From Halobacteriovorax sp. HLS (lineage in GTDB: Bacteria > Bdellovibrionota > Bacteriovoracia > Bacteriovoracales > Bacteriovoracaceae): 64,000 nt of DNA. This document shows, in pieces, positions 28,056 through 64,000 of the stretch (position 1 is its first letter; every line of letters starts with the position of its first letter). The notes beneath the pieces are model-generated. The model did no database searches, was not told where the DNA came from, and was given only the letters and a program-made list of their open reading frames with translations. The stretch covers positions 372,001-436,000 of the forward strand of contig NZ_QOCL01000009.1 of the NCBI RefSeq assembly GCF_004006665.1. Direction: 5' to 3'. A program made the position numbers and the translations under genes.

Positions 28056-28670
28056 GTGTACGAACTACTAAAAACACAATACAGAGAAGAACCAGTTAAT
28101 ACTCTTCGTAAAGAAGGCTATGTTCCAGGTGTTGTTTATGGAAAAGGTATGGAGTCAGTTAGTTTTAAAGTAAACTCTCTTGCGATTACAAAATTCCTAC
28201 ACCACTCAGGAAAAGTATTTGAAGTTGAGATCCAAGGAAGAGGAAAGCACTTAGTGTCACTTGATAATATTCAATTTGATAATATGGGTGACAAGATGAT
28301 GCACGTTGCTTTTCACAAGATCTCTGCAAACGAGAAGACTACAGTAACTCTTCCAATTCACTTTGAAGGTACTGCTGTAGGAACTAAATCAGGTGGAATT
28401 ATTCAACACGTTCTTAACGAAGTTGAAGTTAAAGGACTACCAGGGGATATGCCAGAATATATCGTTGTAGACGTAGCGTCTCTTGATATACATGGACATT
28501 TCTGTTTAAAAGACATTCCAGCACCTAAGGGACTAGAGTGGGCACATGATATAGAAGCAAATGTTGTTTCTTGTCATCCACCAAAAGTAGAAGTAGTTGC
28601 TGAAGAAGTTGTTGAAACTGAAGCAGTTGTAGCTGAAGAGGTTACTACTGAAGACAAGCAAGCAGCTTAA
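28056..28670 (+). CDS. rplY: Ribosomal protein L25 / general stress protein Ctc
   Basis: A 204-residue long-form L25 (Ctc/TL5 type) that binds 5S rRNA in the large ribosomal subunit. The N-terminal half is the L25 domain (REEPVNTLRKEGYVPGVVYGKG and later HLVSLDNIQFDNMGDKMMHVAFHKI). The C-terminal half is the TL5/Ctc beta domain (VTLPIHFEGTAVGTKSGGIIQHVLNEVEV) plus an acidic Glu/Val-rich tail. The start is GTG with AGGGAGG eight bases upstream. It has its own promoter and terminator. Confidence 0.95.
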   Translation: MYELLKTQYREEPVNTLRKEGYVPGVVYGKGMESVSFKVNSLAITKFLHHSGKVFEVEIQGRGKHLVSLDNIQFDNMGDKMMHVAFHKISANEKTTVTLPIHFEGTAVGTKSGGIIQHVLNEVEVKGLPGDMPEYIVVDVASLDIHGHFCLKDIPAPKGLEWAHDIEANVVSCHPPKVEVVAEEVVETEAVVAEEVTTEDKQAA

Positions 28671-28693
28671 TCAATTTTTTTTAAAGTTAAATT

Positions 28694-28730
28694 GGCCCAA
28701 GATTTTCTTTCTTGGGCCTTTTGTCTTTTT
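28694..28730 (+). terminator. Rho-independent terminator of rplY
   Basis: GGCCCAAGA and TCTTGGGCC form a 9-bp perfect stem with a 7-base loop at 28694-28718, followed by TTTTGTCTTTTT. It lies 23 bp after the rplY stop. It falls inside the open frame that leads into the cysteine-repeat gene. Confidence 0.9.
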
Positions 28731-28971
28731 ATCCTTAAACTCCTTTTCCCAATTTAATAAACCGACGACTAAATTTAGCTGGGTTCAAGACACAACAAAC
28801 CCTTACAAAGGGAAGTGTTATGAATATGATATAAAGACTGGTGGACAAGAGTTTCAAGTTAAGGTTTCTAGGCAAAAGTGCCGCCCTAGTGAGACAGAGT
28901 ACCTATGGATCGAAAATAGTAATGGACTATCTGGAAAGTGTTACGAGGTAGACTCTGAAACAAAGGGGAGC
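28702..28971 (+). other. In-frame upstream extension of the cysteine-repeat gene without a standard start codon
   Basis: The frame of the cysteine-repeat protein is open back to 28633, and this stretch is clearly coding-like. From 28702 it reads IFFLGPFVFLSLNSFSQ, a good signal peptide core, and then supplies two more copies of the G-x-C-Y-E repeat (GKCYEYD and GKCYEVD). No in-frame ATG, GTG or TTG occurs before the TTG at 28972. Possible starts are ATT at 28702 or CTG at 28648, the latter with GAGG six bases upstream inside rplY. Either an unusual start is used or the true start was lost when this region became the rplY terminator. Confidence 0.6.
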
Positions 28972-30132
28972 TTGTATTCTTTATCTGTTTTAAATGGAAA
29001 ATGTCTTTTGGAAAAAAAGTCTTTTCAATTTGTTCAAACCAGTGAACTTTCTGGAGAGTGTTATCAAATTATTTCTGACACTAATCGAATGAAAGTTAAA
29101 ACAGATTCGTGCAAAACAAGTGAAGTAAGTTATCATTGGCTTAGTTCCTCTTCTGGATGGGGAGGGAAGTGTTATGAGATTGATGCTAATGATGGTCCTA
29201 GTGCATTTATTAATAAAGCAAAGCATGAAATGTGTCGTCCAAGTAAAGTTCGCTATTCTGTAAGAACGAGTGAATTTAATCAAGCAGGAGATTGCTATGA
29301 AGTTGATAGCGAAAATGGTAGACAGGCCTATTCCTATAAAGTGAGAAGAGAGAATTGTTTCACCGCCAAAGAGAGTGAAAAAAAATATGCTTGGAAACAG
29401 GTTGGGCCTTATAAAGGCGAGTGCTTAGAGTCTCAAGTCTCTAGTGATAATAAGGTCACAATTAAAAAATCTAATTATGAAAATTGTGTGGACTTCAAAG
29501 TTAGAGAAAAATTTATAAAGCTAGATCCCGTCTCAGGTGTCTGTGTGCTCGTTGATGACGAGACTTCTGGCAAGTTATTTGTGCATCAAATATCTATGTC
29601 GAAATGTAGAAGTCAGATAAAGGAATTTGATTATCAATTTATTACTCTTTCAGATGGAAATGTACGGTGCTACGAAATTGATAGAAAGACCCAAGGTGAG
29701 AGCTATATAAAGAAAACACTGATTGATGAATGTCAGGATCTTAAAATAACTCCAAAGTGGTTTGCTGATGAAGATGACCCATGGAGTGGAAAATGTTTAG
29801 GAGTTAATGAAAAGGGTGAAGTGCATTCTAAAAAGAGTTTAAATCCTTTAAAATGTAGACCGGAGAAAGTAAAAGTTCTGTGGCATAATTATGAAAGATT
29901 TAATGGGTTTTGCTTTGAGGTTGACGGTGAAAAGGGTCCTGAGTATTACGCTAAGAAAATTGATATCTCCAAATGCAAGCCAACTTTTACTAAATTCATT
30001 TTTTATAGAAAGAAGAATGAAAAGAGTGGGAATTGCTTTGATGCTGACTCAAAGACTGGTGGAGAACTCTACCATAAAAGGGTAGGAGCAAAGTCTTGTA
30101 AAAGAGAATTGCCCCAAATTAAAAAAGACTAG
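28972..30132 (+). CDS. Cysteine-repeat protein (nine repeats here, eleven with the upstream extension)
   Basis: The longest frame with an ordinary start (TTG at 28972) gives 386 residues, but that TTG has no good ribosome-binding site and cuts into a repeat, so the real protein probably begins upstream. It is made of units of about 36-43 residues. Each opens with G-x-C-(Y/F/L)-E-x-D and has a second Cys 15-20 residues on, often as C-(R/K)-P. Two cysteines per unit suggest one disulfide each, in an exported protein. I know no named domain with this pattern. It overlaps the convergent zincin-like gene by 4 bp. Confidence 0.7.
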   Translation: MYSLSVLNGKCLLEKKSFQFVQTSELSGECYQIISDTNRMKVKTDSCKTSEVSYHWLSSSSGWGGKCYEIDANDGPSAFINKAKHEMCRPSKVRYSVRTSEFNQAGDCYEVDSENGRQAYSYKVRRENCFTAKESEKKYAWKQVGPYKGECLESQVSSDNKVTIKKSNYENCVDFKVREKFIKLDPVSGVCVLVDDETSGKLFVHQISMSKCRSQIKEFDYQFITLSDGNVRCYEIDRKTQGESYIKKTLIDECQDLKITPKWFADEDDPWSGKCLGVNEKGEVHSKKSLNPLKCRPEKVKVLWHNYERFNGFCFEVDGEKGPEYYAKKIDISKCKPTFTKFIFYRKKNEKSGNCFDADSKTGGELYHKRVGAKSCKRELPQIKKD

Positions 30133-60570: not shown

Positions 60571-61383
60571 TTACTTTTGGCACTTAGGGCAGTAGTAAGT
60601 ACCTCTTTGTGCCAAGAATATCTTTTTAACAGGTGTTTCACCACATAATTGACAGATCTTTTGATAGAAAACAACAAGGTGTCCTACGCCACCTCCAGCA
60701 CTTCCTGTCGTATCAGCATAACCACCTTGAAATGTCGTACCACCAGTCTGAGTTGCCCCATCCAAAACAACCTTGCAAGCACTGTGCATTTTTTTTATCT
60801 CAGTAAGAGTCAAAGATTTATTTCTTCTCGTCGGGCGAACAAATGCTCGTGCACAAATTTCGTTCACTATATAGTTACCTGTTCCCGCATAGAGAGACTG
60901 GTCCAGTAGGTGCACTTTTATTTGCCTATTAGGATACTTCTTTATGGTTTCAGTTAAATACTCAATGCTAAACTCTTTAGATCTCAAGTCATGTCCAAGT
61001 TCAGCGAGCTTATCTTGAGTTTCACTCTCACTTAATTGATACATATGACCAAATCTTCTAGGGTCGATATAGCTTAAATAACCTTTAGAGTGCTTGATAC
61101 ATAGGTGATTATGTTTAAGGCCTATTTTATCGCTAGGCCTTTCTTTGCCAATTCTCCAACCTCCAGTCATTCCCAAGTGACTTAGTAAGAATTCATTCTT
61201 ATCAAGTTCAAAGTAGAGCAACTTTCCTTTTCTATGCACTTTAATAATTTTACGATTTGATAAATCAATTGGTGTATGTGCAATTGATGAAATCACAGAT
61301 GACTGCGTACAACTAATAACTTTTAGTGGGAGGATTTCGTTTATTTGGTTTTTTATTGTTTCTACTTCTGGTAGTTCTGGGAT
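60571..61383 (-). CDS. mutM: Formamidopyrimidine-DNA glycosylase, with ATC in place of the start codon
   Basis: A 270-residue Fpg/MutM that removes oxidised purines from DNA. Read from 61383 it begins (ATC)-PELPEVETIKN, the invariant catalytic start (Pro2, Glu3). Later come KGKLLYFEL (Lys57 type), HLGMTGGW, and a zinc finger CQLCGETP...YYCPKCQ at the C-terminus. Full length is normal. The ATC stands where ATG is expected, with GGAG seven bases upstream. The first ordinary in-frame start is GTG at 61296, which would give 241 residues lacking the catalytic Pro and Glu. So either ATC is used as a start or the gene has lost its start. Confidence 0.88.
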   Translation of the reverse strand: MPELPEVETIKNQINEILPLKVISCTQSSVISSIAHTPIDLSNRKIIKVHRKGKLLYFELDKNEFLLSHLGMTGGWRIGKERPSDKIGLKHNHLCIKHSKGYLSYIDPRRFGHMYQLSESETQDKLAELGHDLRSKEFSIEYLTETIKKYPNRQIKVHLLDQSLYAGTGNYIVNEICARAFVRPTRRNKSLTLTEIKKMHSACKVVLDGATQTGGTTFQGGYADTTGSAGGGVGHLVVFYQKICQLCGETPVKKIFLAQRGTYYCPKCQK

Positions 61384-61447
61384 AGCGTAACTCCTAGATA
61401 TTATTAATGTTTCTTGTGTCTTTGTCAGAGTGCGAATAAATCTGAAT

Positions 61448-61593: not shown

Positions 61594-62841
61594 ATGAAAG
61601 CTATAAATTTAAAACTATTAATTGTTCTATCTTTATTAATCAATTTTCAAGCATATTCTTCTGGGGAATGTTTGTCATCATATTATGACGTAAATCGTTT
61701 TAACGAAATATCTACAGCTGTCTTAGATAGAATAGATAAAGTTTATAGCGATATGGATTATCTGATGGAAAATCATTTTAATTCAGACATTCTAAAGTCA
61801 CAGAGTAGTTATGAGAAAATTCAATTTTTAATATCTACTTTAGACTATAATATAGATGGTGAATTGGAGAGGTCTGGAGATATCTTAGCTGATATTCATT
61901 ATACTGTAGAAAATAATTCCTGTGATAAATCTAAGTTCAAACTACATCAACTTAGTCAAATGATCGCGCTAAAAAATTATTATTCAGATTTAAATTATTT
62001 TGCTGAAATTGAAGAAGAATTTAAATTAAGTGCAGACAGTTTTATAATGTTTCTAATTTTTAAATATTTTGCTTTAGATGATTTAAAAGGTAGTGAGTTA
62101 GCTTCTCAACTGTATTGGAAGATTAGATATCCTTTTTCAAAACTTGACTTTTCTGAAGTCGAATGGATTATTTTTAATCAAGGATTTAATGAGAAATTTG
62201 ATACGGTTGAAGACTTTATCTTGCTAAATAGCCATTTAAAGAGTCCTGAGGTTGTATTAGAATACGTTTCAAGTATGCATTCGTGCAATGTATCTTCTGA
62301 GATTTGTTTTCGTTTTAAAGAGTACTTTGTAAATAAGTTCAATAATATTGATGAAATAAGTAAGTATAATTTTTCTACTAATGATAGGAAGTTTATTTAT
62401 CTTTACTTAGTTAACCCTAAAAAAACAATTGCTTTACTCGAAAAAGCTGGCGTTGCTTCAGAAACATTAAAACTTTTCAAGAAGTACGTTAAGTTAGCTG
62501 GAAGTGAAATATGGTCAGTTGGGTCAAGTAATAAGAATGGACAAGGAGGAACTTCTTTTCATTTTAAGTTAAAAGGTAACAAAGAAAAGAGCTTTTCGGT
62601 CAATGTTAACTCAAGATATTTTTCTTTAAATGCTGTTAATGTAGATACGTCAAAAAATGATGACCTAGATATTGTTGTGAAAGTGGGTGATAGAATTTTA
62701 GACTATAGACCAGGTGTTTTTTTGAATAAATATAATATTTGTAATGATATTTCAGATTGTCGTGTAACTATGACAATCAAAAATAGAAAAAGTAAGTCTG
62801 TAAAAGTTTGGGTGGATCAGTTTTATGGTTCAGAAATATAA
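61594..62841 (+). CDS. Secreted protein of unknown function
   Basis: A 415-residue protein with a signal peptide (cleavage near AYS-SG). Residues 25-310 are helical and rich in Tyr, Phe, Leu and Asp. The last 100 residues look like a beta-sandwich (GGTSFHFKLKGNKEKSFSVNVNS onward, with a cysteine pair NICNDISDC), similar in feel to C-terminal pre-peptidase or carbohydrate-binding-like domains. GGGGG precedes the ATG. The base composition is more AT-rich than its neighbours. No family recognised. Confidence 0.68.
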   Translation: MKAINLKLLIVLSLLINFQAYSSGECLSSYYDVNRFNEISTAVLDRIDKVYSDMDYLMENHFNSDILKSQSSYEKIQFLISTLDYNIDGELERSGDILADIHYTVENNSCDKSKFKLHQLSQMIALKNYYSDLNYFAEIEEEFKLSADSFIMFLIFKYFALDDLKGSELASQLYWKIRYPFSKLDFSEVEWIIFNQGFNEKFDTVEDFILLNSHLKSPEVVLEYVSSMHSCNVSSEICFRFKEYFVNKFNNIDEISKYNFSTNDRKFIYLYLVNPKKTIALLEKAGVASETLKLFKKYVKLAGSEIWSVGSSNKNGQGGTSFHFKLKGNKEKSFSVNVNSRYFSLNAVNVDTSKNDDLDIVVKVGDRILDYRPGVFLNKYNICNDISDCRVTMTIKNRKSKSVKVWVDQFYGSEI

Positions 62842-63207
62842 TGGTCAAACCTGATTCTGAATTATTTATACTCCTAAATTATATAGGATAAGTTATTGTA
62901 ATGGCTAAGTGGCTACTTTTTTAAAAAATCTGACCGATCTATGAACTCATGTGAAGTTCAATTAAATAATGTGAAATAGATAAAGTTTGCGAAGACGAGT
63001 TTTAATTCGTAAGTATTAAAAAAAAAAACGACGAGAGTTGAAATTGTTTAGCCACCGGTTAGTTCGGGAATAGTGACAATAAGTGTCTGCAATGAAAGAA
63101 TAAAGTAACGAAATCAACTTAGCAAATTTGGTACTCAAGAGTACTCGAGCTTAGTTATAGTTTCATCTCATGATATTCCCATGACATGAATTGGTTATAA
63201 AATAGCA
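62842..63207. other. Intergenic region with no evident feature
   Basis: This 366-bp AT-rich gap separates two plus-strand genes. I see an A-run of 12 (63018-63029) and a cluster of small palindromes (GTACTC-AA-GAGTAC and CTCGAG around 63131-63149). There is no terminator with a T-run, no RNA gene and no coding frame. The promoter of the 63208 gene should lie here. Confidence 0.4.
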
Positions 63208-64000
63208 ATGAAGCAAAAAATATCGCTTATCATATTCATTTTAGGGCTGGTTCTAGTGATTTTCTCGTTCACACTTAGAGAGTCATACGAAAAAGAGATG
63301 TATCAGTTATATATAAACCAGCAAAAAGATAGTCTTGTTAAGGGGTGGACAAAAAGCTGGCAAGATTACCTAGTGCAAAACTATAAGCAAGAATCTGACT
63401 CAAATGTTATTACAGTAAAGGTTGATCGCAATGGGAAGCTGGTTGATAAGAGTTTTTTCCCTACTAAATCAAAAAGTGAAAGTGACTGGAAGCAGTTCAA
63501 TTCATTATCTAAGGTTAATCAAAAGAAGTTTCTTGAGTCCCAACTAGAAAAGAAGGGGAGCTGGGATAAGGCACTAGCTGTTAAGAGGTTGTATTCTCTG
63601 GATGGTTCTTATCAATTCAAAGAACTTAGCCTTTATGAAATGACTCTTGTTGACCAAAAAATAAAAGAGTCGGTTTCACTCATCTTTACGCAATTAAAAA
63701 ATAAATCTGATTTTAGTAATATAGAAAATCGCTATACTTTTGATGATGTCTTAATGATCGCTGATAAAGATGGAGTTGTATCATTATCAGTTCCATCGCT
63801 AAACTATCTAACAAAGACGATGTTTCAAGCTTTTAGAAGTGATGCCAATGTTACTGAGATAGAGTTATCCACAAACCCTTTCAATATTCAAGTCAAGCAA
63901 GGGTTTAATCCTTTTAAGTTCAATTCTGTTAGAGAAAAAACTCTAATGGGGCTTGGTTTTGTCTTACTCTTTTTAGCTGTAGGACTTTATTTATTGGAAC
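63208..64000 (+). CDS. Membrane sensor-type protein, N-terminal part, cut by window edge
   Basis: The reading frame from ATG 63208 stays open to the end of the window (264 codons). It shows a membrane helix at residues 5-22, a periplasmic domain of about 225 mainly charged residues, and a second helix starting near residue 250 (LMGLGFVLLFLAVGLYLLE). This is the layout of a histidine kinase or similar transmembrane sensor, whose cytoplasmic part would follow beyond the window. The kinase identity is inference. Confidence 0.65.
   Translation, partial: MKQKISLIIFILGLVLVIFSFTLRESYEKEMYQLYINQQKDSLVKGWTKSWQDYLVQNYKQESDSNVITVKVDRNGKLVDKSFFPTKSKSESDWKQFNSLSKVNQKKFLESQLEKKGSWDKALAVKRLYSLDGSYQFKELSLYEMTLVDQKIKESVSLIFTQLKNKSDFSNIENRYTFDDVLMIADKDGVVSLSVPSLNYLTKTMFQAFRSDANVTEIELSTNPFNIQVKQGFNPFKFNSVREKTLMGLGFVLLFLAVGLYLLE

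Follow-up and report, generated by a model that had tools for sequence, protein, structure and literature searches.

The mutM (Fpg) gene in the window, the whole stretch of 64,000 nucleotides of Halobacteriovorax sp. HLS analysed here, begins with ATC, and it is likely that integration of a mobile element at the 5′ end of mutM replaced the leader and start codon of the gene, the ATC being the legacy of that event. The gene occupies 60571..61383 on the minus strand and has 270 codons when read from the ATC at 61381..61383, an assignment that rests on domain, profile and constraint evidence for the gene and on the sequence and comparison with relatives for the initiator position. After the ATC, the minus strand reads CCA GAA CTA CCA GAA GTA GAA ACA (PELPEVET), and seven bases 5′ of it lies GGAG, a putative Shine–Dalgarno sequence (61391..61394, minus strand), both as an earlier note on this DNA had described. 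The first ordinary start is, as was also claimed there, the GTG at 61296, 29 codons into the protein. Reading back from the ATC, 24 codons pass before a TAA closes the frame, and none of them is ATG, GTG or TTG; what characterizes a gene with an AUU or AUC start, namely no canonical start in frame and a Shine–Dalgarno sequence at the normal distance, is found here. A promoter-like CTGACA-17-AATAAT (61400..61428, minus strand, 10/12 matches) is a weak candidate, because seven such sites were observed against 3.5 (sd 1.6) in shuffled sequence.

The 270-residue protein spans the entire Fpg model TIGR00577 (1–276 of 276), this full-length match scoring 187 bits, under the cut-off of 203. Pro2-Glu3 directly follows the initiator, and the N-terminal, H2TH and zinc-finger domains, which together with Pro2-Glu3 identify an Fpg/MutM DNA glycosylase, are all present. 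In pairs among the four g1 congeners, pN/pS is 0.07–0.19 over the whole gene and 0.09–0.21 in codons 2–29; judged from these alignments, mutM is under purifying selection and its open reading frame is intact. Automatic annotation would truncate MutM ahead of its active site in these genomes.

We sought mutM in 129 genomes of the Bacteriovoracaceae-like family, part of them metagenome-assembled and the named relatives being Bacteriovoracaceae and Halobacteriovoraceae assemblies, and found it in 110. With duplicates counted once, and with L128, L170 and L175 lacking a readable start, there are 103 distinct N-termini, three of them from distant paralogs (L184, L186 and L187). The starts are ATG in 72, ATT in 12, TTG in seven, GTG in six, ATC in four and GTT in one, the one remaining gene (L028) having ATG and then an extra residue. 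ATT or ATC thus starts 16/103 genes in the family versus 0/67 outside it, mostly in Bacillota, and PELPEV is retained in all 17 of the genes counted as non-AUG. When the codon is compared between sister strains, as the earlier note proposed, this position is occupied by ATT in two congeners, G003 as well as G004, and by ATG in a third, G001. A search for ATH-PELPEV in 368 genomes of the phylum matched 23, of which 19 belong to the family (16 of these contain the listed ATT/ATC mutM genes) and four do not; the sole mutM among those four (L329 in G235) has ATT at this codon, but also in-frame canonical starts 5′. A start in an upstream frame, or a fusion, was rejected as a candidate: most of the non-AUG mutM genes have a stop codon at a distance of 1–9 codons on the 5′ side (one codon in L153). 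Within the family, the synonymous positions of mutM codons 2–7 vary unusually little, codon 5 being CCC in 85/103.

The comparison of relatives places a tyrosine integrase ORF directly 5′ of mutM, on the same strand, in 44 of the 103 distinct family loci, the ORF mostly ending ~70–110 bp before mutM. The integrase domain is PF00589 (E 9e-16); among the ORFs longer than 300 residues, 22/32 fit all four simple active-site patterns and the others miss one or two, and some of the integrases that adjoin mutM have a small HTH_17 protein encoded ahead of them. ATT/ATC starts occur in 8/44 loci with an integrase and in 8/57 without, so a link between these codons and the presence of an integrase was rejected.

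The start of mutM itself recurs upstream of the gene. The 14-mer CCCGAACTACCCGA, a motif chosen post hoc with the data already seen, occurs 14 times on both strands of 1.62 Mb from 24 genomes: six occurrences are mutM starts, the other eight, in six genomes, all lie 5′ of mutM on its strand and 1.3–18 kb away, and there is none elsewhere in that sequence. These upstream copies (at −1343 in G004, −3953 in G001, −1528 and −4012 in G013, −4457 and −11043 in G010, −11435 in G114, and −17746 in G118) have ATGCCC in seven cases and CTGCCC in one, and from their sequence and position we take them for displaced native mutM starts. Matches of at least 19/24 bases in the same 1.62 Mb, on both strands, number 27 for the real 24-mer versus a mean of 0.13 for shuffled ones. 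Where the copies stand in a row (G013 and G010), they suggest tandem insertions.

The upstream neighbours of mutM vary among the four congeners, whose nearest common gene on that side lies 2.9 to 40 kb away, with the downstream genes syntenic. In G003 the mutM start recurs 1.3 kb upstream, with an rve/IS3-like transposase ORF in between (IS3/IS481-like; L221 9582–10793, minus strand), the 3′ end of which overlaps the first codons of the ATT-start mutM, and G004 has a 48-codon 3′ remnant of the same ORF next to its ATT. The sequence adjoining the ATT in these two genomes comes from an IS3-like transposase gene, which implies either elements of several kinds or an insertion that followed later. 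Contigs of three further genomes (G066:C12, G069:C184 and G115:C70/C95) end within about codons 2–5 of mutM, which is expected if the population has two upstream contexts; such ends are a hint and prove nothing.

Sister genes show directly that the 5′ ends have been exchanged. G113 (ATT) and G119 (ATG) are 36% identical over the 150 bases upstream and 100% identical at bases 18–60 downstream; upstream identity is 0.34–0.39 in the other pairs of ATT/ATC and ATG sisters. The pair G083/G088 has the reverse pattern, with 97% upstream and only 67% at bases 18–60 and 62% at bases 60–150. The non-AUG trait is scattered over the mutM tree, which was built without the start residue: the label, carried by 17 of 100 rows, needs 16 changes (shuffled mean 16.0; 327/500 shuffles as low). 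On the integrase tree, which is small (32 rows) and in which near-copies add to the clustering of the label, seven non-AUG rows need four changes (shuffled mean 6.4; 8/500 as low). At loci with an integrase, AGGTR is found at −14 to −4 in 8/8 ATT/ATC leaders and in 0/36 others; at loci without one, the figures are 0/8 and 4/49 and there is no link. Both the motif and the leader tests are post hoc, AGGTR having been picked once the leaders had been seen.

The window itself seems to contain the decayed remains of an element. The mutM-side copy of the putative attachment site, assigned this role from relatives, comprises codons 1–9 (61358..61383, minus strand), and a degenerate second copy with 19/24 bases lies 1.69 kb 5′ of mutM (63045..63073, minus strand). 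Between both copies, on the plus strand at 61594..62841, a 415-residue protein is encoded that has no Pfam match, is in none of the 185 ortholog families with three or four members described below, and is presumed to be remnant cargo. Beyond the second copy follows a block (63161..66268, its part in the window extending to 64000) that shares 90.5% identity over 3113 bp with sequence at the same place 5′ of mutM in G013, a member of another genus (g10), though the two mutM proteins are 51% identical; the mutM of G013 also starts with ATC. The block includes the 5′ part of a 483-residue gene (63208..64000, plus strand), which continues past the window and is followed outside it by a response-regulator-like gene, and the G013 counterparts of both occupy the same place (Pfam of the G013 set). 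Sequence comparison shows horizontal transfer at the mutM site. The leader of the window's mutM is closest to that of G018, from another genus and with ATT (20/28 bases, median 12), and no integrase was found near this mutM in the stretch examined. Given the degenerate copy and the G013-like block, the ATC is best read as a start supplied by an element. G013 also has, at G013:C1:659168–659293, the remnant of a second mutM C-terminus ~3.5 kb downstream of mutM (67% identity, 42 residues).

We propose that integrative elements encoding a tyrosine integrase use the first codons of mutM (ATG CCC GAA CTA CCC GA) as their attachment site in the chromosome. A crossover at roughly codons 1–6 would place the element between the native leader with its ATG and the remaining mutM, so that the gene's own ATG would be displaced to the far end of the element and the reading frame would be restored by the matching sequence that the element end carries. 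The element would thereby bring its own leader, Shine–Dalgarno sequence and start codon, the last being AUU or AUC in some elements. The ATC in the window would then derive from such an insertion, the element having since decayed to a remnant; we infer that an integrase made the swap and that ribosomes use the AUC which, with its GGAG, would now direct the synthesis of functional MutM, probably less often than an AUG would. Exchange of the initiation region by elements would explain why very rare starts have repeatedly arisen in a single repair gene and almost nowhere else. Several observations count against this proposal: the stretch examined beside the window's mutM yielded no integrase, the second copy there agrees at only 19/24 bases, ATT/ATC is not commoner at loci with an integrase, the ATT of G003 and G004 adjoins transposase-derived sequence, and neither excision nor a circular form was seen.

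Host evolution of a regulatory AUU or AUC at mutM, keeping MutM low or tying it to IF3 (a role proposed for the infC and pcnB starts) and leaving the elements incidental, is an unlikely explanation. It would fit the restriction to ATT and ATC (plus one GTT), with no ATA or CTG seen, as well as the AGGTR in all eight ATT/ATC leaders at integrase loci, which looks as if it offset a weak codon. However, the trait is scattered, with nearly as many changes as rows on the mutM tree, in sister genes the codon changes along with the whole leader, and the congener G001 has ATG. Inactivation of mutM, with a start at the internal GTG or none, was the other half of the choice posed by the earlier note, and we regard it as very improbable: there is indeed no canonical start ahead of the active site, but the low pN/pS of codons 2–29 includes the part ahead of the GTG, and PELPEV persists in every non-AUG gene. 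Of that choice, it is non-AUG initiation of a working gene that is supported, by the constrained frame and the recurrence at 16 loci, while inactivation is left unsupported. Sequencing or assembly error, for which the rarity of the codon alone would speak, has a negligible probability and is rejected because relatives carry ATT at the same mutM codon (two congeners), ATT/ATC recurring in 16 distinct loci with differing leaders.

Relaxed or altered initiation throughout the genome, e.g., by a special initiator tRNA reading AUU and AUC, would account for the choice of codons, these being the ones a GAU anticodon would read, and infC of the family also seemingly starts with ATA or ATT after GGAGG-like, GGAGGTGGGTT-like leaders in 17 of 30 loci found by pattern (L188–L217). 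Against this, mutM is the only gene with ATT/ATC at a conserved start among 185 ortholog families (those with three or four members in the four congeners, ~1.26 Mb), a survey in which eight families besides mutM were flagged and six read, the internal columns 582 and 117 were left out, and six “ALT” families were left unread. Lax initiation across the genome was rejected on the basis of this survey. A special initiator tRNA has no support either: the tRNA loci scanned in G000 (L278–L307, 30 of 33 matches) include three CAT tRNAs and no GAT tRNA, not even the ordinary tRNA-Ile(GAT), and since the latter gene is missing, the assembly is incomplete here. Altogether, we consider altered initiation extremely improbable as the origin of the ATC. 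A tRNA-Ala(TGC) of G000 lies at a contig end, so that an rRNA operon is probably unassembled.

The exchange of the 5′ end of mutM by elements, which we prefer, has close parallels. The dusA islands insert into the 5′ end of a protein-coding gene and exchange that end for their own, the original 5′ end becoming the outer boundary, and their integrase gene adjoins the target gene as at part of the mutM loci; the mutM case differs in target gene and host family, and the term “start codon” does not occur in that report (PMC4482086). Two traits of the dusA type are found here: the displaced 5′ end as a direct repeat, in eight exact copies from six genomes, the window copy being degenerate; and, by comparison of sister genes, an ORF restored with a 5′ end that the element would have supplied. 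As for a third trait, an integrase by the target, one lies there at 44/103 family loci and none was found by the window's mutM. The SpyCI islands likewise occupy the 5′ end of mutL, a DNA-repair gene of Streptococcus pyogenes, where integration blocks transcription as a growth-phase mutator switch and where, after decay of the island, island-borne sequence rescues expression; the mutM ORF, in contrast, appears to be restored with the leader and start codon of the element (PMC3430984). Searches of open-access papers listed none on mutM/Fpg as an integration site or with a non-AUG start, and none on such islands in Bacteriovorax; the word mutM is absent from the literature examined on relatives of these bacteria.

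Non-AUG start codons are known from infC and pcnB in E. coli, and the likeness to their regulation that the earlier note drew is an analogy. The pcnB start is also in the reference list of a study of Staphylococcus aureus, which describes the non-AUG starts of infC, cvfC1 and ccpN as conserved and regulatory and reports that AUU/AUA initiation with a strong Shine–Dalgarno sequence gives about 10% of AUG output in reporters in poor medium (PMC13009471). Unlike those genes, mutM seemingly has its codon exchanged with mobile elements. It is conceivable, though rather unlikely, that the integrated islands act as a reversible translational dial, AUU/AUC giving low MutM and more G-to-T changes and excision restoring AUG; mobile DNA would then set the mutation rate of the host via a start codon. 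In any case, the roughly one hundred different beginnings of this one gene, leader and start codon together, form a natural series.

These loci indicate a new integration hotspot in this predatory-type bacterial family, and some of the elements carry anti-phage genes. The set scanned with Pfam and PADLOC (43/77 ORFs, eight element regions) includes a CBASS-type cyclase, Sa_NUDIX, HamA/HamB and type I restriction proteins; with CBASS-, Hachiman- and type I restriction-like genes among them, a defence hotspot is possible. Two such regions 5′ of mutM, L346 (7697–19129) and L347, measure 11.4 and 17.7 kb up to the copy of the start sequence, each with an integrase.

Elsewhere in the window, at 28633–30129 on the plus strand and directly after rplY (GTG start), an ORF for a repeated GKCYEVD-type protein, conserved in three congeners, has no ATG, GTG or TTG for 113 codons. 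Its start is possibly a CTG near 28648, after GAAGAGG and inside the end of rplY, and the signal-peptide-like part includes a terminator-like hairpin, GGCCCAAG...CTTGGGCC.
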